From positions 1 to 51,174 of the IMG/VR virus record IMGVR_UViG_3300050132_000130: a stretch of DNA of 51,174 nucleotides. One strand, written 5' to 3'. The notes under the pieces were generated by a model. That model saw only the letters and a program-made list of their open reading frames with translations. It made no database searches and had not been told where the DNA came from. Below are positions 1 through 51,174 of this stretch, piece after piece (position 1 is the first letter of the stretch; each line of letters begins with the position of its first letter). The translations under genes were made by a program, and so were the position numbers. Source of the stretch: a virus.

Positions 1-127
1 CCGTCCTCTTGGCTTACAAGCTTCGCCTTGCTCTTTCTAGCCAGAGCAAGAAAATCTCGGAAATGTTTTTCATCTTCCGCGATAACCCCAAGACTTACTA
101 CATGCAAAGCATCACGACACTTGCGGG
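1..127. repeat. Left copy of terminal direct repeat (circular join)
   Basis: These 127 bases are identical to the last 127 bases of the window. The reverse-strand gene crossing the join stays open in frame when the two copies are merged, so the molecule closes as a 51047-bp circle. A length of 127 equals a common maximum assembly k-mer, so the repeat is better read as an assembly overlap than as a packaged terminal repeat. Confidence 0.95.
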
Positions 128-263
128 TTGTCGGACGAAACAATTGATCTAGATCGTCGGGCAAAACAAAAATGGATGCGTCGGGAAAATTAACCCGAAA
201 ATACTCATCCTGACTATCGAGCGTCCGATAGGTATATGAGGAAATTACGGCTTTATCAGTCAT
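1..263 (-). CDS. Degenerate serine-recombinase-like protein, N-terminal part (continues across the join)
   Basis: The first ATG of this reverse-strand gene is at 263-261, with an AAGGTCAAGA leader. The frame runs to base 1 and continues at 51047 down to 50687, giving 207 residues on the circle. The N-terminus (VISSYTYRTLDSQDE) resembles the first strand of serine resolvases (YARVSTDDQ) but leucine or threonine stands where the catalytic serine should be. The segment around residues 53-88 (HVVSLGVIAEDEKHFRDFLA) resembles the resolvase stretch that normally reads 'DRLGRDLRDLLALL'. This is the first gene of the leftward small-gene operon and lies directly downstream of the minus-strand half of the palindromic promoter. 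The gene and its continuity are certain; the family assignment is an inference from motif shape. Confidence 0.85.
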   Translation of the reverse strand, partial: MTDKAVISSYTYRTLDSQDEYFRVNFPDASIFVLPDDLDQLFRPTTRKCRDALHVVSLGVIAEDEKHFRDFLALARKSKAKLVSQED

Positions 264-298: not shown

Positions 299-327
299 TT
301 GACAGGGTATTAAATACTTGGTATTTG
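299..327 (+). promoter_or_regulatory. Sigma70-type promoter reading right
   Basis: TTGACA at 299-304, a 17-base spacer and TATTTG at 322-327 give a near-consensus promoter, with transcription predicted to start around 334. It would drive the candidate structured RNA and the gene at 546. Its -10 lies inside the spacer of the opposite promoter. Confidence 0.65.
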
Positions 328-339
328 ATTGGGTGTCAA
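311..339 (-). promoter_or_regulatory. Sigma70-type promoter reading left, overlapping the rightward one
   Basis: On the reverse strand TTGACA (339-334), a 17-base spacer and TATTTA (316-311) form a strong promoter for the leftward operon starting at 263. The start site is predicted near 304, leaving a leader of about 40 bases. The two promoters are symmetric about base 319: CTTGACA arms at 298-304 and 334-340, and AAATAC/GTATTT arms at 312-317 and 321-326. RNA polymerase cannot occupy both at once, and the palindrome could also serve as an operator. Confidence 0.65.
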
Positions 340-370: not shown

Positions 371-521
371 AATTTCTACCGAGAGAACCTGCAAAGAGGA
401 TCGTGATCGCAGAGCAGGGGTAAAACAGGATGAGAGGAAACCGCTAGGCCAGCGGGATTATACTTGTCTGAAAGCCGGACGCGGTGGGGAACCTCCGCCC
501 TTCTCGCGGTAGAAATTTGTT
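371..521 (+). ncRNA. Candidate structured noncoding RNA, about 150 nt
   Basis: Bases 371-387 pair with 501-517 in a 17-bp closing stem with one mismatch (382/506). Inside lie several hairpins: CCTGC/GCAGG (388-392 with 414-418), CCGCT/AGCGG around 441-455, GTCTG/CGGAC (466-470 with 476-480) and GCGG..GG/CC..CCGC with a GGAA-type loop at 481-498. The closing stem runs directly into ATTTGTTT, which looks like a terminator tail. A good rightward promoter lies about 40 bases upstream, and no ORF fits the region. I compared it by eye with 6S, RNase P, tmRNA, common riboswitches and small ribozymes and recognised none. A leader function for the gene at 546 is possible but less likely given the U-rich end. 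Confidence 0.55.
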
Positions 522-39324: not shown

Positions 39325-39810
39325 ATGGCGTGTAATACATTGAACGGTATATATAATTTCGTTCCCACACCTGTATTCATGCTGTGATCGGCGGGAAAGT
39401 AAGGGGTTTTTCGGGAAGCCGCATATCCCATCCACCAGTGCGCCGAACTATAAACCGCACCCCAGTGACGCCCACCCCGTTTAAACGAGCCACGCCTCAA
39501 CCTGCACAGGATAAACGGCGGCAGAACAAACACGTGAGGTCGGGGATGGTTTCAAAATTAGTTTCAGTCAGATTTTACGCGCGCCCGAAATGCCCGTGTA
39601 CGTTGCAGACCTCTGGGAGGACCCTAAGTCTTTGATATATATAGACATTCCTTGTGTGGTATCCCGATACCATTACTCAACTCATTGATATATAATATAT
39701 TACATTATTGTATATTATATATCATTATCAATATGTTATGTATTATGTTAAATGAAATAACATATAGTATATTCAACCACTTAAGTATTATGTTAAATGA
39801 ACAAGACAAG
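39325..39810. other. Non-coding AT-rich segment with short repeats
   Basis: I find no convincing gene here. It holds a 17-bp direct repeat (39740-39756 and 39785-39801, GTATTATGTTAAATGAA), an inverted repeat TGGTAT/ATACCA at 39658-39673, and TTTGATATATA copies near 39262 and 39631 with a reverse copy near 39227. Stretches at 39190-39242 and 39680-39780 are nearly all A/T and would unwind easily. Confidence 0.6.
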
Positions 39811-39840
39811 AAAAAGGCGAGTCAATCTTGTTGACTCGCC
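39811..39840 (-). terminator. Terminator of the HNH endonuclease gene
   Basis: GGCGAGTCAA (39816-39825) pairs perfectly with TTGACTCGCC (39831-39840) over a 5-base loop. On the reverse strand the 10-bp stem is followed by TTTTTC, 20 bases past the stop codon of the HNH gene. Confidence 0.88.
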
Positions 39841-39859
39841 TTGATAGTTATGAATGAAA

Positions 39860-40591
39860 TTATATGCCCCGACAGTTATCGGCGAGTCGTTGCCATTTAG
39901 GATCGTCGCTTGAATGCTTGAGTCTATTACAATCAAGGCAACATATAACAATGTTATCTTGCGTATGTAATCCGCCAGAAACAAGCGGCTTAACGTGATC
40001 CATTGACTTGTTTGCAGGTGTAAGAGGCTTGCGACAATAAGGGCAGTCTTGCGATGAATCAAAAAGATTCTGGAGCCATTGCTTTGTAACACTTCCATCG
40101 CTTGCACGTTTTGCAGCTAGTTGATTCGTGCTTAGGTGTTTTTCATTATCCACAAAATATCGCCTTGATTTTTCTTTGAATGTGTTGCGCCTATATCTAT
40201 CCCTGTACCGCGCGGCTTCTTTCTGTCTAAAATATTTTGCTTCTTCTTCCGTTAGCGTTGCATACCAGGCCTTTGTACCTTGTGCAGGTTTTGCCGGATG
40301 GTCTAGGCGATAGAGTCGCTTGGCTTCCTTCCTTGCGGCTTGGTCAATAATCCGTTGCGCCTTGTGTTCGACTGATAGGATAGATTGAATCGCCTTAGGG
40401 ATATATTCCTTGTTTGTTTCTCCTCTCCTGCGCCGCCCGTCTGCCCTTGCTTGTGGCGAATGTGCAGCAATAAAAGACGGCGAATTCCTTACACAATGCG
40501 TGCAGGATGCCGTTAATCCATCTTTTGATGCCTTACGTTTAGAAAAGGCGGATTCTTCCTTCTCTATTAGGCAGGTTGTGCAAGTTTTCAT
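39860..40591 (-). CDS. HNH homing endonuclease with N-terminal zinc ribbon
   Basis: 243 residues from the ATG at 40591 (AAAGGA site); the frame is open upstream but AT-rich and without a site. An N-terminal ribbon CTTC...CTHC (residues about 3-34) precedes a basic helical region. The C-terminal HNH reads CPYCRKPLTP, MDHVKPLVSGG, DNIVICCLDCNRLKH. It has its own promoter and terminator between the origin and early operon, as expected of a mobile gene. Confidence 0.87.
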   Translation of the reverse strand: MKTCTTCLIEKEESAFSKRKASKDGLTASCTHCVRNSPSFIAAHSPQARADGRRRRGETNKEYIPKAIQSILSVEHKAQRIIDQAARKEAKRLYRLDHPAKPAQGTKAWYATLTEEEAKYFRQKEAARYRDRYRRNTFKEKSRRYFVDNEKHLSTNQLAAKRASDGSVTKQWLQNLFDSSQDCPYCRKPLTPANKSMDHVKPLVSGGLHTQDNIVICCLDCNRLKHSSDDPKWQRLADNCRGI

Positions 40592-40628
40592 GTTGGAATA
40601 TCCTTTGTTGTTTGTTAAATATGCCCTT

Positions 40629-40658
40629 ATAATAGGCACAAAATACCCCCATAAGCAA
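40629..40658 (-). promoter_or_regulatory. Promoter for the HNH gene
   Basis: Reverse strand TTGCTT (40658-40653), 18-base spacer, TATTAT (40634-40629), about 40 bases before the ATG at 40591. Confidence 0.45.
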
Positions 40659-40671
40659 TAAAACAATAAAC

Positions 40672-40701
40672 TTGACATTATAAAATAGCGTTTATTGCTA
40701 T
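40672..40701 (+). promoter_or_regulatory. Possible promoter for the right early operon
   Basis: TTGACA (40672-40677), 18-base spacer, TGCTAT (40696-40701). A perfect -35 with a weak -10, upstream of operator-like repeats and the first early gene at 40800. Confidence 0.45.
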
Positions 40702-40712
40702 CTTTGCGCTTA

Positions 40713-40758
40713 GACAAAATTGTCCATTGACAAAGCAATTGATAAGGCGCAAATTGTC
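40713..40758. repeat. Operator-like TTGTC/GACAA repeats
   Basis: GACAAAATTGTC (40713-40724) is an inverted repeat; a further GACAA follows near 40729 and AAATTGTCA near 40751. They lie just downstream of the early promoter, where a repressor would block it. TTTGTC copies also occur in the divergent region at 9489-9509. Confidence 0.4.
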
Positions 40759-40799
40759 ATCAAGAGAACAAAACAACCCGCAAACAAACGGAGTCTAAA

Positions 40800-40997
40800 A
40801 TGAAAACAGCACAAGCAACAATTACTAAGGACATGACACTAGGTCAGGCCGTTGCAGCTATCCAATATGCGTGGCCTGCTACAAGATGCCGTATTTCTTA
40901 CCCCGAAAATAATGTTGTTACAATCGAGGAAAACGAAAAAGGAATACAGCGTTGCGATATTGGATTTACGATAGCTTGCCTTTACCGCCAATCCTAA
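40800..40997 (+). CDS. Small early protein, first gene of the right rightward operon
   Basis: 65 residues with the leader GGAGTCTAAA. ATITKDMTLGQAVAAIQYAW then CRISYPENNVVTIEENEKG. No known family. Small proteins at this position often modify host functions. Confidence 0.6.
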   Translation: MKTAQATITKDMTLGQAVAAIQYAWPATRCRISYPENNVVTIEENEKGIQRCDIGFTIACLYRQS

Positions 40998-41017
40998 CAA
41001 ACCAATAGGAGTCTAAA

Positions 41018-41200
41018 ATGAAAAAACAACCACAAACAATCACAACTCTATTCATGGGCTATCAGGCTAATCTTGCAACATGCCACACAAGCCTAGAGCG
41101 TCAATTGTCGCGCGTGATAACCGGAAAAGAGATTCGCGCGCTTGCCATAAAGAAGGGCATGTTGACGAGTCGCGAGTCTGCTATCGTCGCGCAATTTTAA
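41018..41200 (+). CDS. Small early protein
   Basis: 60 residues, leader AGGAGTCTAAA. Basic helical protein with SLERQLSRVITGKEIRALAI and two cysteine-free halves; ends SRESAIVAQF. Family not recognised. Confidence 0.55.
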   Translation: MKKQPQTITTLFMGYQANLATCHTSLERQLSRVITGKEIRALAIKKGMLTSRESAIVAQF

Positions 41201-41224
41201 TCCCTCATACAAAAGGAGTCTAAA

Positions 41225-41515
41225 ATGTATGAATTAAAAATAATCGCCGCGCCCGTATCATCCTACAAGGTGGAATCGAACGGCGAGTCGATAACCATGA
41301 TAAGCCAAGCATGGAATAGCCCTGCATTGCTGCATCAAGTCCGGCATGTAAAAAACCTACAGGAAGGGATTCATGTTGTGCAAGCCTGTTTTAATCAGGT
41401 TAGGCAGGATCACCCCGAAACCGAATTTAGTTTTTCGACTCGTGCTATCGGGCGTAAACCTAACGGATTCGACAAAGTGAGAGTCCAGCTGAATCCTAGC
41501 TACACTAACGTTTAA
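41225..41515 (+). CDS. Small early protein
   Basis: 96 residues, leader AGGAGTCTAAA. ELKIIAAPVSSYKVESNGES, SPALLHQVRHVKNLQEGIH and HVVQACFNQVRQDHPETE; mixed alpha/beta with a basic tail (RKPNGFDKVRVQL). Family not recognised. Confidence 0.6.
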   Translation: MYELKIIAAPVSSYKVESNGESITMISQAWNSPALLHQVRHVKNLQEGIHVVQACFNQVRQDHPETEFSFSTRAIGRKPNGFDKVRVQLNPSYTNV

Positions 41516-41538
41516 CCCTCAAACAAAAGGAAAATACC

Positions 41539-42171
41539 ATGTTGCACACACAGACTCCCCTAGAAAAAATAACTGCGCGTAGGTCACAATATAACCCTGA
41601 TAGAGCGTTTTTTATCCCTCCCGGATATACGCTTGCAATTGACGACGAGTCGCTAGGAGTCGCCATATATCACGGACTCGGCGTAAAATATGGTAAGCCT
41701 TGTTCTATTCGGTTTTTCGGGAAGTCTAAAAAACCCCGTGAACATTACAGGTATGACTCGGAAGAAAAACGCGCGGAAGGTGACTCAAAATTCATGGAGT
41801 CGAGTCGATCGTGTATGAATTACAGGGAAGCAAACAAAGCGGCGGCAAAGGCAAAACGCGCGACTCCCCATACACTAAAAGAAGGCGATATATTGGTTAG
41901 TTCATGGGGTTATGAGCAAACCAATGTTGAATTCTATCAGGTGATAGGACTCAAGGGTCAATTCACGGTTTTATTGAAAGAGATAGGCGGAAAAAGCGTA
42001 GGTTGCGAGGGTTCCAGCATGTCAGATATGGTAATCCCTGTTAAGGACTCGTTCGGGGATTCTAAGGTAATAGAAAGGCGCGCGTGTGTTGGCAATTATA
42101 TCAAGATTAATGACTGCCAACAGGCGAGTCTATGGGAAGGGTGCCCTATGTATAGGTCTTGGTACGCATAA
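41539..42171 (+). CDS. Conserved phage protein of unknown function
   Basis: 210 residues, with AAAAGGAAAATACC before the ATG. Residues about 117-150 (LKEGDILVSSWGYEQTNVEF, YQVIGLKGQFTVLLKEI) recur in many phage early proteins. Upstream is a basic segment with IRFFGKSKKPREHYRYDSEE and an Ala/Lys helix. No catalytic motif. In this genome it lies just before the clamp-like gene. Confidence 0.65.
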   Translation: MLHTQTPLEKITARRSQYNPDRAFFIPPGYTLAIDDESLGVAIYHGLGVKYGKPCSIRFFGKSKKPREHYRYDSEEKRAEGDSKFMESSRSCMNYREANKAAAKAKRATPHTLKEGDILVSSWGYEQTNVEFYQVIGLKGQFTVLLKEIGGKSVGCEGSSMSDMVIPVKDSFGDSKVIERRACVGNYIKINDCQQASLWEGCPMYRSWYA

Positions 42172-42179
42172 AGGACGAA

Positions 42180-42193
42180 ACGCCGAAAGGCGT
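42180..42193 (+). other. Small GNRA-loop hairpin between early genes
   Basis: ACGCC-GAAA-GGCGT forms a perfect 5-bp stem with a GAAA loop in the 74-base gap before the clamp-like gene, followed by AGGG....CCCT. No T run follows, so RNA processing or stability is more likely than termination. Confidence 0.3.
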
Positions 42194-42245
42194 CTTAGGG
42201 TATGTTCCCTAACTGAAGAGTCCACAAACAAATGGAGAGTCTAAA

Positions 42246-42929
42246 ATGTCTATCATCAACACACGAGTCGAATGCCTTAAAGCCGTTTTCCCATTCGTTT
42301 CAAAAGAGGAAACGCGCTATTACCTGAACGGCGTTTACGCCGAGTCCGGCCTGTTAGTCGCCACTGACGGGCATAGGCTTGCAGCGATTAAACCTGCCCT
42401 AATGGAGTCGCAAGGGGCGGGATTCATAATCCCTAGTGCGACGATTAAACAGGTCTTGTCTATCAAGGCCGGGAAACGCGAAGAATTATTCTCTGAATTC
42501 AATACGGAAACGGGAGTCGCCACGGTTTACACGTTAGACCGCGATAAGAATCGCGATTCAAAAGGCGCGTTTCCGTTTAAACCTATCGACGGCACGTTTC
42601 CAGAATGGCGGCGCGTGATTCCATCGGCGGAAAATTTTAATACCGCCAACCATAAGGATCGGAATCAAAACACGGGCGCGGAATTCAATTCCGCATATCT
42701 TGCCACTTTTCAGGCATTCGGGGATAAGGTAAACGTGTTTTTGAATAATGATCCCGGCGCGCCTTCACTTGTGACGGCAAAAACGGAATTGTTTGAGGCT
42801 GTAGGGGTGATTATGCCAATGCGTAGCTATGAATTGGCCGCCGTATTGCCTGAATGGATCAAGGTGACACCTACCCCCCCGGCGGCATTGGATTCAGAAA
42901 CGGTAAAGGAATCTGAATCGGTTATTTAA
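42246..42929 (+). CDS. Shortened sliding-clamp (DNA polymerase III beta)-like protein
   Basis: 227 residues against about 370 for DnaN. It carries landmarks of the beta clamp middle domain in order: YYLNGVY (25-31), ATDGHRLA (39-46), FIIPSATIKQV (60-70) and FPEWRRVIP (118-126). Later VGVIMPMRS (187-194) matches the end of cellular DnaN (VVMPMRL). The first domain is missing and the third shortened. Probably interacts with replication proteins or mimics the clamp. Leader AATGGAGAGTCTAAA. Confidence 0.8.
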   Translation: MSIINTRVECLKAVFPFVSKEETRYYLNGVYAESGLLVATDGHRLAAIKPALMESQGAGFIIPSATIKQVLSIKAGKREELFSEFNTETGVATVYTLDRDKNRDSKGAFPFKPIDGTFPEWRRVIPSAENFNTANHKDRNQNTGAEFNSAYLATFQAFGDKVNVFLNNDPGAPSLVTAKTELFEAVGVIMPMRSYELAAVLPEWIKVTPTPPAALDSETVKESESVI

Positions 42930-42940
42930 TGTAAGACCGT

Positions 42941-42959
42941 GCCCGTGCGGTTCACGGGC
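42941..42959 (+). other. Perfect hairpin between clamp-like and next gene
   Basis: GCCCGTG (42941-42947) and CACGGGC (42953-42959) around a 5-base loop, 12 bases after the clamp-like gene stop. No T tract on the plus strand; could attenuate or stabilise the upstream message. Confidence 0.4.
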
Positions 42960-42988
42960 GAATTATGTAAATAAACAGGAGTCGAGTC

Positions 42989-43267
42989 ATGTCAAAACAT
43001 ACGCCAGCATCTTGGATCGTAAGGGATGTATTTATAGAAAATTTTCCTAATAAATACATGATAACAGAAAATAAATGGGGCGGTAAAACCATTGCTGATT
43101 GTGGAATTACTGTATCACAAGAAAGCATAGCTAATGCCCGATTAATGGCGGCGAGTCCTGAATTGTTTCACATTGTAACCGAGTTTTTAGAATGCGGTGA
43201 CAATGCCGGGCACAATGAAGAATTAAAGGCATTGGCACGAGCCGCTATTGCCAAAGCTAGGGGATAA
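42989..43267 (+). CDS. Conserved small phage protein (NARL.AA.PEL type)
   Basis: 92 residues, leader CAGGAGTCGAGTC. The stretch IANARLMAASPELFHIVTEFLE matches a very common but uncharacterised phage family, often at the end of early operons. GGGGA/TCCCC (43260-43272) forms a hairpin whose loop holds the stop codon. Confidence 0.65.
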   Translation: MSKHTPASWIVRDVFIENFPNKYMITENKWGGKTIADCGITVSQESIANARLMAASPELFHIVTEFLECGDNAGHNEELKALARAAIAKARG

Positions 43268-43338
43268 TCCCCCCGGCATTGATAAAAATAAACCGAGTCG
43301 GGCAATAATGCCCCCTCATACAAAAGGGAGTATATAAA

Positions 43339-43560
43339 ATGAGCAACGTATCAGGCACAACGCCGCGCTATCTGCCCGGCCAAAAATTCAAGACAGGCGG
43401 CAAGCGAGGGGATATTTGCACCGTTACAGATATTCATAAAACCTATAACGGCTCGGGGGAATTGGTAAAAACCCGTTACGTTGCAACGCATGAATTTTGC
43501 GGTCAGGTGATAACGGACTCGGATGTTGTGGAAGCAACTATCGCGCGGGGGTTGCTATGA
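43339..43560 (+). CDS. Small phage protein
   Basis: 73 residues, leader AAGGGAGTATATAAA. Beta-rich: RYLPGQKFKTGGKRGDICTV, RYVATHEFCGQVITDSDVVE, TIARGL. Resembles small phage proteins of unknown function that end in a T-I-(K/A)-R-G-L motif. ATGA overlap with the next gene. Confidence 0.6.
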   Translation: MSNVSGTTPRYLPGQKFKTGGKRGDICTVTDIHKTYNGSGELVKTRYVATHEFCGQVITDSDVVEATIARGLL

Positions 43561-43805
43561 TCCGCGCCGCGCTATTAACCGCTTGCCTTGTCGCCGGGTT
43601 CACGGCGGGGCACTACACAAGGCCGCCGCCGCAACCCGTGCGAACGGTGCACCAATCCGTTTACATCCCGGCATTTATCCCGTTACGGCATCCAGCGAGT
43701 CGGTATGTCGGGCAACAGATTAACCGGATAGCGGCAACAATTCCGGCGGGGGTTTTGTTACCCCCTCCCGGCATCACTCATAAAAAACACCACAAGGGGG
43801 GATAG
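43557..43805 (+). CDS. Small membrane-anchored or exported protein
   Basis: 82 residues from the ATG overlapping the previous stop. N-terminal hydrophobic segment AALLTACLVAGFTAGHY (one membrane helix or signal), then proline-rich PPPQPVRTVHQSVYIPAF and a basic His/Lys tail. Possibly spanin-like, but it is far from the lysis genes. Confidence 0.55.
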   Translation: MIRAALLTACLVAGFTAGHYTRPPPQPVRTVHQSVYIPAFIPLRHPASRYVGQQINRIAATIPAGVLLPPPGITHKKHHKGG

Positions 43806-46266: not shown

Positions 46267-46545
46267 TTACTGGTTCAGGCATGTCGCACCTTTCATCTGC
46301 TCAATAATTTCTGGGTGACAATATATCTTATCGCCCATCTGGATCATTCCCGGCACCTGCTTGCTTTGAAAGCCCCAAGCCTTCATAAGCTTCTTGTGGA
46401 CGCGGCGTGACCGATTACGGCTCTTTTTGAAGTTCTCAATCTTTTGCATAATGCGGTCGCTCGATATAATAGGAATACCCGCAAGCATCGAGAGCATACC
46501 AGACTGATGTCCGATATAAGCTAACGGGTTCGTGGTTTGTGTCAT
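46267..46545 (-). CDS. Last gene of the small-gene leftward operon
   Basis: 92 residues, starting MTQTTNPLAYIGHQSGML with the shared MTQTT start. Basic helix IENFKKSRNRSRRVHKKLMKAWGFQS, then PGMIQMGDKIYCHPEII. ATGA overlap with the previous ORF. A small DNA- or RNA-binding role is suggested only by charge. Confidence 0.6.
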   Translation of the reverse strand: MTQTTNPLAYIGHQSGMLSMLAGIPIISSDRIMQKIENFKKSRNRSRRVHKKLMKAWGFQSKQVPGMIQMGDKIYCHPEIIEQMKGATCLNQ

Positions 46546-46649
46546 TGCATCACCTGCCGGTAAAGAGAGGCCAATCTTTCTTTGCTCATTTTCTTGATCT
46601 TGCGATTTTTTGCTTTTGGTTTCTTTTTCGTGGTTTTAGATTCTGTCAT
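46542..46649 (-). CDS. Tiny, very basic ORF
   Basis: 35 residues: MTESKTTKKKPKAKNRKIKK then MSKERLASLYRQVMQ. It overlaps both neighbours (14 and 4 bases) and its 5' end is nearly identical to that of the ORF at 49747 over 18 bases (GAATCTAAAACCACGAAA). Confidence 0.5.
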   Translation of the reverse strand: MTESKTTKKKPKAKNRKIKKMSKERLASLYRQVMQ

Positions 46650-46842
46650 TTAATGCCTCCTGATAACCCTTGGCCCAAGCTGCGTCTAATTCTTTGGCGC
46701 TATCGCTTGCCATCTCGATACTTTCCAACAAATCAGTGATTTCGCTCTCTACTGGCGGCGGCAGTCCGTTATCAGCGAACCATGTGAAAACCGCCCATCG
46801 CTTCGGGTCGCGCATTGTCTGGGTCGTTTGGGTTTTATCCAT
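46636..46842 (-). CDS. Small acidic protein
   Basis: 68 residues: MDKTQTTQTMRDPKRWAVFT then SEITDLLESIEMASDSAKEL and WAKGYQEALNDRI. Helical; the N-terminus carries a version of the QTT start. Family not recognised. Confidence 0.55.
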   Translation of the reverse strand: MDKTQTTQTMRDPKRWAVFTWFADNGLPPPVESEITDLLESIEMASDSAKELDAAWAKGYQEALNDRI

Positions 46843-47020
46843 TTAGCATCTCCAAGACATCCGGCTTAACATTGATGACGCAAATATCTTCCTTTTCCTC
46901 GATCTTCCCAATGGATGAACATACCCGATGGTAGGCAAGAGGAGCATTGCCGTCTTTCAAATTCTTTTTTAGAGAATAGAGAAATAACAGCAATTTATCT
47001 TTCGATATTTCAGTTTTCAT
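46835..47020 (-). CDS. Small hypothetical protein
   Basis: 61 residues: KDKLLLFLYSLKKNLKDGNA then CSSIGKIEEKEDICVINV. It overlaps neighbours on both sides. Unknown. Confidence 0.5.
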   Translation of the reverse strand: MKTEISKDKLLLFLYSLKKNLKDGNAPLAYHRVCSSIGKIEEKEDICVINVKPDVLEMLNG

Positions 47021-47198
47021 TGCCCATCGCCTCCATGTTGCCGAGTGATTGAATTAGCTGGCTGCGTAATTCATTGTCACGCTTGAGGTTCGCGCTCAGT
47101 TTTTCAATCTCTGCTTTTACAAGCGAGATGATAAACTCAGGAACGTGAACTTTCGTGGCATAAGGCGGCATAGTCATTGTTTTAGTTGTGGATTGCAT
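47010..47198 (-). CDS. Small hypothetical protein
   Basis: 62 residues: MQSTTKTMTMPPYATKVHVP then FIISLVKAEIEKLSANLKRD, a helix-rich body. Begins inside the preceding ORF. Unknown. Confidence 0.5.
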   Translation of the reverse strand: MQSTTKTMTMPPYATKVHVPEFIISLVKAEIEKLSANLKRDNELRSQLIQSLGNMEAMGNEN

Positions 47199-47313
47199 CA
47201 GGCTTCTCCCAGAACCAATGATGATTTACTGCACGCCAGAAGCGGATAAAAGCTATCGCGTCTTTGTCGCGCCGATAATGGATTTTTAAGGTGCGCTTGG
47301 TCGTTACTGTCAT
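47182..47313 (-). CDS. Tiny aromatic ORF
   Basis: 43 residues: MTVTTKRTLKIHYRRDKDAI then AFIRFWRAVNHHWFWEKPD. Its ATG overlaps the stop of the 128-residue gene upstream (ATGA), the usual coupling here, so I prefer it to the longer frame from 47398 across the same DNA. Confidence 0.55.
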   Translation of the reverse strand: MTVTTKRTLKIHYRRDKDAIAFIRFWRAVNHHWFWEKPDAIHN

Positions 47314-47696
47314 TCAAATCCTCCGAAGAATGAAAATGGTTTAGTCGGGCCATTTGGTTGATAAAGCCAACATTGAGATTCACCGCATGGGTTATCAAAT
47401 TGATCTAGCGGTCTAGCTGTGTACATGACTGTTCGGCCATCTTCGCATTTCCACATCCTATTCCCACAGTAGCTCCAATTGCCGCCGAGACGCTTTTTCA
47501 AGATAGACGTTTTACTGCCAGCGCGAACAGCCTTTAGAGACAAAAGAAAATCAGGAATTTCTGTCGTTTTAGATTCCACCCTTGGCGTAGCTTCCTGCTG
47601 CTTAACAGTTGAGTTCTCGGCTCGGTGTCCATCGCTGGTATCCGCCGCCAGCGTCCGAGATACGGTGGAATTATTCGCCGTTTGTGGATTAGTCAT
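47310..47696 (-). CDS. Hypothetical protein with a C-terminal compact domain
   Basis: 128 residues. The first 45 are polar and disordered (NNSTVSRTLAADTSDGHRAE). Residues about 50-125 form a folded domain with LKKRLGGNWSYCGNRMWKC, EDGRTVMYTARP and QCWLYQPNGPTKPF. Cysteines could bind metal. ATGA coupling on both sides. Confidence 0.6.
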   Translation of the reverse strand: MTNPQTANNSTVSRTLAADTSDGHRAENSTVKQQEATPRVESKTTEIPDFLLSLKAVRAGSKTSILKKRLGGNWSYCGNRMWKCEDGRTVMYTARPLDQFDNPCGESQCWLYQPNGPTKPFSFFGGFE

Positions 47697-47914
47697 AGTG
47701 CCTCCATTTTCTCTATTTGTCTGATTATGCTATCAGCCATCTCAACAGCATCTTCGTGGCGAACAAAATTCCTGATTGTGATCCAATCCAAAATAACATC
47801 CTTAACTGACCACCTCTCATGCCATGCTGAAGTTCCGCAGTGATAATCAGCCGAAGAGACATTCCGCAAACACGCGAATACCTCAGACAATGAGATCATT
47901 TGTGGTTCGGTCAT
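47693..47914 (-). CDS. Small hypothetical protein
   Basis: 73 residues: SLSEVFACLRNVSSADYHCG then WSVKDVILDWITIRNFVRHE and AVEMADSIIRQIEKMEA. Helical. ATGA overlap with the next gene. Unknown. Confidence 0.55.
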   Translation of the reverse strand: MTEPQMISLSEVFACLRNVSSADYHCGTSAWHERWSVKDVILDWITIRNFVRHEDAVEMADSIIRQIEKMEAL

Positions 47915-48087
47915 ACATTCACCTTTATTTTTAATTCCAAAGCCCCATCTTCCATGTATTGGCGCATGTAACGAAAGGCTTCCGCTACAACCATATCAAT
48001 GGGTCCGCATCCTTCAGCCACAATCATCCCGTCTTGCTCAATAAAAAATTCAGCATCTGGTTTCGTGGTTTGTGAATTATTCGTCAT
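47911..48087 (-). CDS. Small hypothetical protein
   Basis: 58 residues: MTNNSQTTKPDAEFFIEQDG then IVAEGCGPIDMVVAEAFRYM. Begins with a variant of the shared QTT start and ends in an ATGA overlap. Unknown. Confidence 0.55.
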   Translation of the reverse strand: MTNNSQTTKPDAEFFIEQDGMIVAEGCGPIDMVVAEAFRYMRQYMEDGALELKIKVNV

Positions 48088-48253
48088 CGGATGCTCCCGC
48101 GCCTAAAGTTTGAGTAGTTATCCAACGCCCACGACCGCCGCTAGTCTGGCGTACGAGGTGCTGCAAATATATTGCTCCCCACGAGGAACGACGAAGGCGG
48201 TATCGTCCGGTCGGAACTACAGTTCCTTCCCACCAATTCGTGGTTTGGGTCAT
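48077..48253 (-). CDS. Small Trp/Arg-rich protein
   Basis: 58 residues from the ATG at 48253 (ATGA overlap with the gene upstream): MTQTTNWWEGTVVPTGRYRL then IYLQHLVRQTSGGRGRWITT. Shared MTQTT start; beta-rich. Unknown. Confidence 0.5.
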   Translation of the reverse strand: MTQTTNWWEGTVVPTGRYRLRRSSWGAIYLQHLVRQTSGGRGRWITTQTLGAGASDDE

Positions 48254-48444
48254 ATCGTAGCCTCCCCGCAAACTGCCCTCAGAATATGTTCCGGGACGTT
48301 GGCATTATGTAGCGCAAACCAGTCGGTTACGCCCTTGGCTCGCCATTTCCATTTGCCCGCTCCGAGGAATCTGTAGGAGATCCCCTCACATTCAAGGTCA
48401 ATGCGATTTGAATATTTAAAAATCGTGATCTCCGCTTTTGTCAT
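48250..48444 (-). CDS. Small hypothetical protein
   Basis: 64 residues: MTKAEITIFKYSNRIDLECE, then YRFLGAGKWKWRAKGVTDWF. The WKWRAKGVTDWF segment is striking but I do not know a family. ATGA overlaps on both sides. Confidence 0.55.
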   Translation of the reverse strand: MTKAEITIFKYSNRIDLECEGISYRFLGAGKWKWRAKGVTDWFALHNANVPEHILRAVCGEATI

Positions 48445-48650
48445 TTGTGCACCCGAGGGTTTTTGAGTTTGTTCTTCTTAGGTAGCGGCGGAAATCCACG
48501 AAGAGTCGCCTTCGATTCCATACCCATCCCGGGCTTCGATGAGAACTCCATAGAGGTGCAGACCCATCGCTGGCTTCTGATAGTTTCCCGCGTGAATGAA
48601 GACACGGAACCAGGCATTTGCACGGTGATAGTGATAGTGGTTTGTGTCAT
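48441..48650 (-). CDS. Small hypothetical protein
   Basis: 69 residues from the ATG at 48650, overlapping the methyltransferase stop: MTQTTITITVQMPGSVSSFT then MEFSSKPGMGMESKATLRGF and a basic tail PKKNKLKNPRVHK. Shared MTQTT start. Unknown. Confidence 0.5.
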   Translation of the reverse strand: MTQTTITITVQMPGSVSSFTRETIRSQRWVCTSMEFSSKPGMGMESKATLRGFPPLPKKNKLKNPRVHK

Positions 48651-49171
48651 GCTACTTTCCCCCTCAAGATAAATTGCGCGATATGTCGGGCAGTTCCTTT
48701 GCCAGCGGATCCGTCCTCGGTTGCTAACCACTTCACATCGCCAAGATTGCGAATTTCTGCACCAGCCTTAACGAGCATGAGCAACCATTTATCAACCGGA
48801 AAAACTATCACGACATCTTTGCCTTTTTCCTGTTCTTTGATCGCTTTGCGAACCCATGCGGTCGGCCCCTTTTTCTTGCCTTCGTGCATGATGTATCCGA
48901 ACGGCGGATTGACGTAACTCGACTTCCCCCATTCGCAGGTTAGCCCGTCGAAGTATTCGGGCTTCGGATACGGGCAAGGATCAAAGTCGAAATTAAACTC
49001 GCCCTGCATCTGAGCCATAAGTTCAGGCGGCGTAAGCCAATAATGTTTTCCGTCATCTCCATTGCCTTTGTGGAATTTGTTGTCAGCGGGCGCAAGCAAT
49101 GATTGATGAGGCGTCGCTGGTTCATCCCAGATTTTTGCCATCTGTTCGCTAAAAGTCGTTTCCATTGTCAT
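48647..49171 (-). CDS. Phage N6-adenine DNA methyltransferase (Dam-type)
   Basis: 174 residues. The family order is present: WLTPPELMAQM (45-55), FDFDPCPYPKPEYFDGL (61-77), SYVNPPFGYI (catalytic NPPF at 88-91) and VVIVFPVDKWLLMLV. Such enzymes modify phage DNA to evade restriction. The second of three methyltransferases here; recognition site unknown. ATGA overlap at both ends. Confidence 0.85.
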   Translation of the reverse strand: MTMETTFSEQMAKIWDEPATPHQSLLAPADNKFHKGNGDDGKHYWLTPPELMAQMQGEFNFDFDPCPYPKPEYFDGLTCEWGKSSYVNPPFGYIMHEGKKKGPTAWVRKAIKEQEKGKDVVIVFPVDKWLLMLVKAGAEIRNLGDVKWLATEDGSAGKGTARHIAQFILRGKVA

Positions 49172-49320
49172 GTCTTTTCCCTCATATATTTTGTGATCTG
49201 AACCCAGTCTTTAGAAAACTTTTGGAAATCTGATGGATCGGCAAACACCGTATCAAATTTACCGTTCTTCTTTTCGATAATCCAAACTTCCTTTGGTAAT
49301 TCTGTCGTTATTGTTGTCAT
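49168..49320 (-). CDS. Tiny ORF upstream of the Dam-type gene
   Basis: 50 residues: MTTITTELPKEVWIIEKKNG then KFDTVFADPSDFQKFSKDW. ATGA overlaps at both ends strongly suggest translation. Unknown. Confidence 0.55.
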   Translation of the reverse strand: MTTITTELPKEVWIIEKKNGKFDTVFADPSDFQKFSKDWVQITKYMREKT

Positions 49321-49580
49321 GGCTTTCTTCCCTTCATGGCGTCGATGAAATTTAGCAAGACGCCGTTCGTCTCAAGTTTGGCGATTTTCATCCACTCGAA
49401 AAGCTCGGCACAGAAATTTGCGGGAGCAATAGCATTCTTGCAAGCTTGGTTATAAAGTCGCTCATAGGCCGGAGCGTACTTCTGCGGCAAGCCGTCCTCA
49501 TTTTCTTCCTCAGCGTAATCGACCGCCTCCTTTAAGAGAAGCCAATCAACGATTGTAGGATCGGGTGTGGTTTGTGTCAT
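49317..49580 (-). CDS. Small hypothetical helical protein
   Basis: 87 residues: MTQTTPDPTIVDWLLLKEAV, then YAEEENEDGLPQKYAPAYER and ELFEWMKIAKLETNGVLLNF. The leader and start GGTGATGCAATGACACAAAC are identical to those of the gene at 46545. Unknown. Confidence 0.6.
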   Translation of the reverse strand: MTQTTPDPTIVDWLLLKEAVDYAEEENEDGLPQKYAPAYERLYNQACKNAIAPANFCAELFEWMKIAKLETNGVLLNFIDAMKGRKP

Positions 49581-49747
49581 TGCATCACCTTCAAAGCTAA
49601 GATTGATTTCTCGACATCCTCAAATAAGTCTTGGCGGTTTGCTTTAGGAAATTTGCGCGCAATTTTTGCTGCTAGTTCCAGAGCATCATTGAACCCGTCA
49701 TCGTATAGTTTTTGATCGTTAGATTTCGTGGTTTTAGATTCACTCAT
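49577..49747 (-). CDS. Small hypothetical helical protein
   Basis: 56 residues from the ATG at 49747, overlapping the lipoprotein stop by 8 bases: MSESKTTKSNDQKLYDDGFN then LELAAKIARKFPKANRQDLF. Shares its SESKTT start with the ORF at 46649. Unknown. Confidence 0.55.
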   Translation of the reverse strand: MSESKTTKSNDQKLYDDGFNDALELAAKIARKFPKANRQDLFEDVEKSILALKVMQ

Positions 49748-49967
49748 TGCAGACTTTCTCCTGTGCTTGATAATAGGCGGCATCATCGCAAGCCTTCACG
49801 AGATCGCCGTTATTATCTTCATGATTGTGTTCCGGTTGTGCGCCGGAAATTTTAATGCACTCCTCAAAATAAGCATGTCGCTTGTCTTGATTGGTTTCAT
49901 GGTCGCAGACTTTGCAACCGGACAGAAGCAGTAGTGCGGCCAGAATAACTGTTGTTTTATATTCCAT
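49740..49967 (-). CDS. Small lipoprotein
   Basis: 75 residues from the ATG at 49967. N-terminus MEYKTTVILAALLLLSGCKV has a lipobox LSGC, so Cys18 should be lipidated after export. The mature part is small, acidic and cysteine-containing (ECIKISGAQPEHNHEDNN). Phage lipoproteins may block superinfection or assist lysis (o-spanin-like); its place in an early-type operon favours the former. The function is an inference. Confidence 0.7.
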   Translation of the reverse strand: MEYKTTVILAALLLLSGCKVCDHETNQDKRHAYFEECIKISGAQPEHNHEDNNGDLVKACDDAAYYQAQEKVCNE

Positions 49968-50166
49968 TGAGAATGCCTCCTGCAAGATTTCCAATATCTG
50001 AGAAACCTTCTCGGTAGTCCTCAGAATTAAGAGAGCAGAGGGCATCTATTTTCTGGAAAGCATCCTGAAGATAATTTACTGCCGTAAGTGCATCCGCAAC
50101 AGTCTGCACATCTTGATCGAGAATGCCGAGCTTGATGATGTCGAATAGGGTCGTTTGTGTTGTCAT
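49957..50166 (-). CDS. Small hypothetical protein
   Basis: 69 residues: MTTQTTLFDIIKLGILDQDV then VADALTAVNYLQDAFQKIDAL. QTT start; helical. ATGA overlap with the methyltransferase stop. Unknown. Confidence 0.55.
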   Translation of the reverse strand: MTTQTTLFDIIKLGILDQDVQTVADALTAVNYLQDAFQKIDALCSLNSEDYREGFSDIGNLAGGILNGI

Positions 50167-50690
50167 ATCAATTTCCTTTCAGGTTCCAGCTTCCGTTCTG
50201 CCAAGCAGATCGTATCGTTATGCGCCCCACCGTGGCAGACAAGCAGTATTTCCTCTATCTCATACCCGCGCCCTTTTCCCATGCCAACTGTGTTCCAGCC
50301 GAATGAAAGGACGATGCCGCCGACTTCAACAATCGGATCGAAAGCATCCCTGACGCGCTTGTAGAGCAATGCGCTCTGCGTTTCCTTCATGCCGACTTCC
50401 ATGCCGATATTCTTATAACATTCCGAAATCTGGCGAGGGGAATAAGGTGGATCGAACAGAACGAGATCAATAGGTTTGCCGAGCTGTTTGCAGAACTCTT
50501 CAGCGTCCATATGGCTATCGGCTTGTGTGGTAGGGTCAAGATCATTCGTGTAGGTTGCCAGACGCTTGTTTCTAGCAAACGGGTCGATACTTACCTTTGA
50601 CGCAGAAAGATAGCGGCGCACAAAGTCGCCGATTGGGGCAATCGAGAATGTTTCGTGATTAGGCATCGCCCATGCGCGTGAGAATTTCAT
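50163..50690 (-). CDS. Adenine-specific DNA methyltransferase-like protein
   Basis: 175 residues. RAWAMPNHETFSIAPIGDFV, SIDPFARNKRLATYTNDLDP (SAM-binding DPF at 36-38), VLFDPPYSPRQISECYKNIG (catalytic DPPY at 80-83) and VLSFGWNTVGMGKGRGYEI match a phage family annotated as adenine-specific methyltransferases. Third methyltransferase of the genome; second gene of the leftward operon. Confidence 0.8.
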   Translation of the reverse strand: MKFSRAWAMPNHETFSIAPIGDFVRRYLSASKVSIDPFARNKRLATYTNDLDPTTQADSHMDAEEFCKQLGKPIDLVLFDPPYSPRQISECYKNIGMEVGMKETQSALLYKRVRDAFDPIVEVGGIVLSFGWNTVGMGKGRGYEIEEILLVCHGGAHNDTICLAERKLEPERKLI

Positions 50691-51174
50691 TTTTTCTTAC
50701 CCCATATATGACTATGGAGGTCTTGGCTTTCTTGCTTAGTAAGGGGCTTCTTTTTTGTTGCCGCTTCCGCACGCCAGATAGCGCGTTGGCGGTCATGCCC
50801 CCAGCCTCTATCGCTTGCAATGCGCCGAAGCGTGTTGATGCTCATATCGTATTTCTCGACAAGCTGCGCGTTCTTGATTGAGCCATCAACCCATTCGGCT
50901 TTGGTAAATGCCTTTGCACGTTCTTCGACAGCGGCTTTCTTTGCCGCGCCGCCCCGTTCGCCGCCAATTTTTGCCGACCCTTTGCGCCTCGCATCCTTCC
51001 ACCATTTGACCAGATTTTCTATGTTGCTAGGGACAATCCAAAAGTTTCCGTCCTCTTGGCTTACAAGCTTCGCCTTGCTCTTTCTAGCCAGAGCAAGAAA
51101 ATCTCGGAAATGTTTTTCATCTTCCGCGATAACCCCAAGACTTACTACATGCAAAGCATCACGACACTTGCGGG
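50687..51174 (-). CDS. Degenerate serine-recombinase-like protein, C-terminal part (continues from base 263)
   Basis: This is the rest of the 207-residue gene whose start is at base 263; the last 127 bases of the window duplicate its 5' portion. After a resolvase-like helix (RDFLALARKSKAKLVSQEDG) come KWWKDARRKGSAKIGGERGG, typical of the arm before resolvase DNA-binding domains, and a helix-turn-helix (NAQLVEKYDMSINTLRRIAS, then RGWGHDRQ). The active-site serine is missing, so it is more likely a DNA-binding regulator than an invertase. Overlaps the methyltransferase start (ATGA). Confidence 0.8.
   Translation of the reverse strand, partial: RKCRDALHVVSLGVIAEDEKHFRDFLALARKSKAKLVSQEDGNFWIVPSNIENLVKWWKDARRKGSAKIGGERGGAAKKAAVEERAKAFTKAEWVDGSIKNAQLVEKYDMSINTLRRIASDRGWGHDRQRAIWRAEAATKKKPLTKQESQDLHSHIWGKKK
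51048..51174. repeat. Right copy of terminal direct repeat (circular join)
   Basis: Identical to bases 1-127; merge the two copies when closing the circle. Confidence 0.95.

Follow-up and report, generated by a model that had tools for sequence, protein, structure and literature searches.

Closest Described Systems

One general kind of RNA element already known is the structured 5′ leader found in mRNAs of bacteria and phages. A different architecture is found in 6S RNA, a single long hairpin whose central bubble mimics an open promoter. Bidirectional promoters of E. coli share their −10 element, with divergent transcription starts situated mostly 18 bp, and also 10 or 23 bp, apart (Warman et al., PMC12825309).

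The locus considered here belongs to the virus record IMGVR_UViG_3300050132_000130 of IMG/VR, which was analyzed as a whole (positions 1 to 51,174, 51,174 nucleotides, hereinafter the window). Its central feature is an inverted repeat delimiting positions 371–517 in an intergenic region of 282 nt (264–545), next to a pair of mirror-image promoter sequences and ahead of a 100-aa ORF (Table 1).

Table 1. Positions of the features in and around the intergenic region of the window
Feature	Positions	Strand	Basis and details
Leftward gene start	1..263	−	207 aa from ATG at ~263, through the circular junction to 50687; wrapped ORF and 127-nt terminal repeat
Rightward promoter	299..327	+	TTGACA 299–304, 17-bp spacer ending in TG, weak −10 TATTTG 322–327 (3/6); exact TTGACA-N17-TATTT
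Leftward promoter, mirror of the rightward one	311..339	−	TTGACA 339–334, 17-bp spacer, TATTTA 316–311; exact pattern
5′ arm of closing helix	371..387	+	Pairing, fold, inverted-repeat count
P2 hairpin, predicted	388..418	+	388–392/414–418 plus inner 3 bp; pair probabilities ~0.95; interior not above shuffles
P3 long irregular hairpin, predicted	419..476	+	Pair probabilities 0.6–1.0; interior not above shuffles
P4 hairpin, predicted	477..500	+	Pair probabilities 0.63–0.84; interior not above shuffles
3′ arm of closing helix	501..517	+	Pairing, fold, inverted-repeat count
First ORF after the RNA, 100 aa	546..848	+	CxxC...HxxxC zinc-finger-like phage protein; PHROG 7314, E 1e-10; tblastn homologs

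The Phage Genome and Its Putative Host

The ends of the record are identical over 127 nt (1–127 and 51048–51174), so the assembly is circular (51,047 bp), and the point where it was opened falls within the leftward gene beside the inverted repeat. In the circle, the 371–517 region is flanked by a block of small leftward genes on one side and by a short rightward block (546–1554) on the other. The phage has a contractile tail (tail sheath, PHROG 165; baseplate wedge), its terminase and portal being of the lambda type, and it encodes a GapR-like DNA-binding protein of its own (1306–1554; PF10073, E 5e-26). The latter, together with the distant relatives of the 100-aa ORF product in Azospirillum phage Cd and Sinorhizobium phage PBC5, suggests an alphaproteobacterial host.

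Two further peculiarities of the genome were documented. The site of CcrM methylation in alphaproteobacteria is GANTC, and GAGTC/GACTC is ~5.5 times denser in 39800–43600 (36 sites per 3.8 kb, 26 of them being GAGTC on the + strand) than in 1–39800; the 46300–51047 stretch contains a single site. Several Shine–Dalgarno (SD) sequences in the 39800–43600 block read GGAGTC. In addition, several small leftward genes of the 46500–50170 stretch (minus strand), whose proteins begin with MTQTT..., have a nearly identical start region, ATGACACAAACCAC, in common; its repetition looks as if a translation-initiation cassette was copied.

The Closing Helix and Its Interior

The inverted repeat is real and unusual. 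Its arms form 16 Watson–Crick pairs out of 17, the single mismatch being A382/G506; hence, the nearly perfect closing stem of the preliminary description is confirmed. By direct count, this is the sole inverted repeat of the genome with at least 16/17 pairs at a spacing of up to ~300 nt, and a repeat of this quality never arose when the intergenic region was dinucleotide-shuffled 1,500 times. On the + strand, 371–517 folds with −55.6 kcal/mol vs. −41.7 ± 3.9 kcal/mol in the shuffles (z ~ −3.5; for 371–521, z = −3.4). The minus strand also folds (z = −2.7), since the repeat is strand-symmetric, and the + strand is favored solely by G–U pairs inside the fold model. In a coarse genome-wide scan of fold z-scores, the repeat region was among the top windows on both strands. 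The closing helix is retained when 334–600, including the leader and the beginning of the ORF, is folded. The region proved to be gene-free as initially described: it is not spanned by a conserved ORF, sense ORFs of at least 40 aa overlapping 371–517 are lacking, and the antisense ORF 376–552 (58 aa) has no family match.

The part enclosed by the helix behaves differently. The minimum free energy (MFE) structure of the interior comprises three hairpin branches, so the multibranched fold described earlier is reproduced with three hairpins instead of four. Folded alone, 388–500 is no more stable than its shuffles (z = −0.8); when only the core was shuffled and the arms were left intact, the fold was at least as stable in 110 of 500 cases. 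Therefore, the whole excess of fold stability of 371–517 is due to the arms, and the multibranched model is unproven past the closing stem. The ensemble diversity of the real core is lowish (47 of 300 shuffles are as low), which is no more than suggestive; by A-richness of the loops, the real core is not separable from the shuffled ones.

The 5′ arm contains AATTTCTAC, which resembles the start of Cas12a repeats. This resemblance was put down to chance and dropped: a 9-mer is expected to occur randomly ~0.4 times per 51-kb genome, and the rest of such a repeat is absent. The idea of a decoy against a defense system is without support.

The Mirror-Image Promoter Pair

Upstream of the helix, the CTTGACAGGGTATTAAATACTTGGTATTTGATTGGGTGTCAAG stretch (298–340) reads TTGACA-N17-TATTT on both strands. 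Three matches to this pattern were found in the window against 0.10 expected, two of them at 298–340, and 0 of 100 shuffles reached three. Given its mirror symmetry, the pair is unlikely to have arisen by chance. The promoter called strong at first glance does possess a perfect −35 element and a 17-bp spacer; its −10 is weak, although TG-extended, and it makes up one half of the pair. Judging by the spacing, transcription is expected to start near 334 (rightward) and 304 (leftward), so one polymerase should exclude the other. A −10 element common to both directions is lacking, the two lying separately at 311–316 and 322–327. The core of the pair holds an operator-like dyad, AAATAC-TTG-GTATTT. 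Possibly, the promoter pair and the inner dyad constitute an operator or a switch that selects either the early genes on the left or the transcript running rightward.

The First ORF and the Stretch before It

The ATG at 546 is the right start of the 100-aa ORF because its distant homologs begin at the same place in the alignment. It is situated about 28 nt downstream of the closing helix and has almost no SD: the SD energy is +0.5 kcal/mol vs. a median of −6.3 kcal/mol, placing it among the three weakest of the 41 gene starts examined. No intrinsic terminator was scored between the 371–517 domain and the ORF, including at 517–525. The U-rich end reported previously thus corresponds to a weakly U-rich sequence, AUUUGUUU, following the helix but not to an intrinsic terminator. 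In Arthrobacter phages and Azospirillum phage Cd, the homologs of the ORF reside inside tight operons without such a leader. Hence, the RNA is not tied to this gene family, and any regulation would be a matter of local arrangement.

Search for Homologs

No matches to Rfam 15 were found in the window at the gathering threshold, and permissive E-values gave chance matches only, in accord with the initial failure to recognize a known RNA class. A blastn search in annotated phages and plasmids returned nothing relevant to the RNA. Exact patterns derived from the 3′ part, P3, and the arms were searched for in viral contigs (one pattern, in genome contigs) and filtered with a covariance model; only chance matches were obtained, the best pattern-derived one (L086) scoring 16.9 bits vs. 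199 bits for the window itself. The model was built from one sequence and would miss diverged members; within this scope, it revealed no homolog in 40 loci of TerL relatives or in 754 proteobacterial genomes (385 alpha- and 369 gammaproteobacterial). P0001 was found in none of the 385 alphaproteobacterial genomes. Anchoring on the neighboring proteins (those of the 100-aa ORF, the left gene, and primase) revealed no close relative in viral contigs; the ORF family varied too much for its alignment to serve as a query.

The closest TerL relatives (G001, G003, and G005; TerL about 72–73% identical) match only the window genes within 6181–35462. They contain no counterpart of the neighbors of the RNA, and their contigs appear to end before the region, so the absence of the RNA there is not evidence. 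Inverted repeats of comparable size in G001 and G005 were considered as possible homologs and rejected: they are AT-rich, GTTGACC-based, and of other sequence, that of G001 scoring at most 9.1 bits. The AT-rich gene-free stretches upstream of late genes in these relatives (~3000–3450 in L149 of G001 and ~13060–13445 in L152 of G005) display many direct and inverted GTTGACC repeats and resemble iterons or a regulator-binding array.

Possible Roles of the 371–517 Domain

Judging by the promoter sequences, the domain is probably transcribed. Tentatively, and with somewhat less than an even chance, it can be regarded as a structured leader at the 5′ end of an early phage transcript. This reading is favored because no terminator was scored before the ATG at 546, the ORF start is kept in homologs, its SD is weak, and the helix persists in the 334–600 fold; the uniqueness of the inverted repeat in the genome and among the shuffles also speaks for it. 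The inverted repeat, the promoter sequences, the lack of a scored terminator, and the weak SD are direct observations. Moreover, the domain is located between a promoter-like sequence and an ORF with no terminator scored in between; among the roles put forward in the preliminary description, the leader element is the sole one with positional support (no terminator, proximity to the start codon, and a weak SD). At the same time, the shuffle-level stability of the interior, the lack of homologs in the databases and genomes searched, and the leaderless operons of the distant ORF homologs speak against it. An expression platform, as expected of a switch, is not recognizable either: the ORF has no SD that could be hidden, and the 3′ end of the domain shows no terminator.

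Under the leader reading, host RNA polymerase would start near 334 from the rightward half of the divergent promoter. The transcript would then comprise a 37-nt unstructured start, the helix-closed domain, 28 nt, and the ORF. The domain would most likely act in cis, its long helix protecting or insulating the 5′ end. The helix may also serve as an RNase III substrate, so the domain could perhaps be cut out; such cutting might set the level or translation of an mRNA nearly devoid of an SD.

A rather less likely explanation is a free-standing, trans-acting phage small RNA whose ends are locked by the closing helix and which either terminates immediately past 517 or is freed by processing. The compact helix-closed architecture, the gene-free location downstream of a promoter without coding potential, and the weak U-richness of the sequence after the helix would fit such an RNA. 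However, transcription is expected to start 37 nt ahead of the helix, no terminator was scored at 517–525, and no homolog turned up in the phages, plasmids, viral loci, TerL relatives, and proteobacterial genomes searched.

The repeat might also operate, with a lower likelihood, at the level of DNA, being what is left of a small element with terminal inverted repeats or a pair of protein-binding sites, with no RNA function. The arms alone beat chance and are strand-symmetric, and the closest relatives carry unrelated inverted repeats of ~140–170 nt in AT-rich, gene-free, GTTGACC-studded DNA resembling arrays of binding sites; this explanation is kept because such long repeats can be DNA-level arrays in this phage group. 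However, the arms are unlike the GTTGACC repeats, the genome contains no other arm copy beyond one match with three mismatches, and none of 80 viral loci with one arm had a convincing partner. Of the MITE-like traits, terminal inverted repeats (16/17) are present; further copies and a clear target-site duplication are not, the flanks inspected by eye being ACCCC before 371 and TGTTT after 517 and sharing no more than a 4-bp TAAC that is displaced from either end.

It is improbable, although conceivable, that the domain exemplifies a new class of phage early RNA, helix-closed and ~150 nt long, produced first from one arm of the promoter switch and acting in trans either on machinery of the host or on the early operon of the other direction. 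A retron ncRNA finds no support in the gene neighborhood, where matches to a zinc-finger-like PHROG, a DNA methyltransferase, and GapR were found but no RT. The least credible option is a 6S-like polymerase-binding RNA or another known class missed by Rfam: the length and the closing stem are within the range of several known classes, but Rfam yielded no match whether the gathering or a permissive threshold was applied, and both the MFE structure and the ensemble are multibranched (P2 pair probability 0.95) rather than a bulged rod with a central bubble, which disfavors the regulator of host polymerase proposed initially.

At present, the locus amounts to a single orphan sequence in which a single helix is significant. 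Should it be transcribed and adopt the predicted fold, it would represent an early RNA element of no assigned class in a phage group that has hardly been sampled. Owing to the adjacent mirror-image promoter, one could then test directly how the phage chooses between its leftward early genes and the rightward transcript headed by this RNA.

Comparison with Known Systems

With the riboswitch, sRNA, and 6S families of Rfam, the domain shares the size range and the helix-closed form, but no family scores above noise. It is similar to the structured 5′ leaders in that a structured non-coding domain follows a promoter and precedes an ORF, with 28 nt separating the helix from the start codon and without a terminator before the ORF; it differs from the known ones in that no known ligand, SD sequestration, terminator/antiterminator pair, conserved motif, or homologs are evident. 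As to the promoter pair, each strand has a −35 and a −10 element of its own and the starts are predicted to lie ~30 bp apart, unlike in the bidirectional promoters of E. coli (Warman et al., PMC12825309); still, both are built on pseudo-symmetrical DNA where one RNA polymerase would exclude the other.
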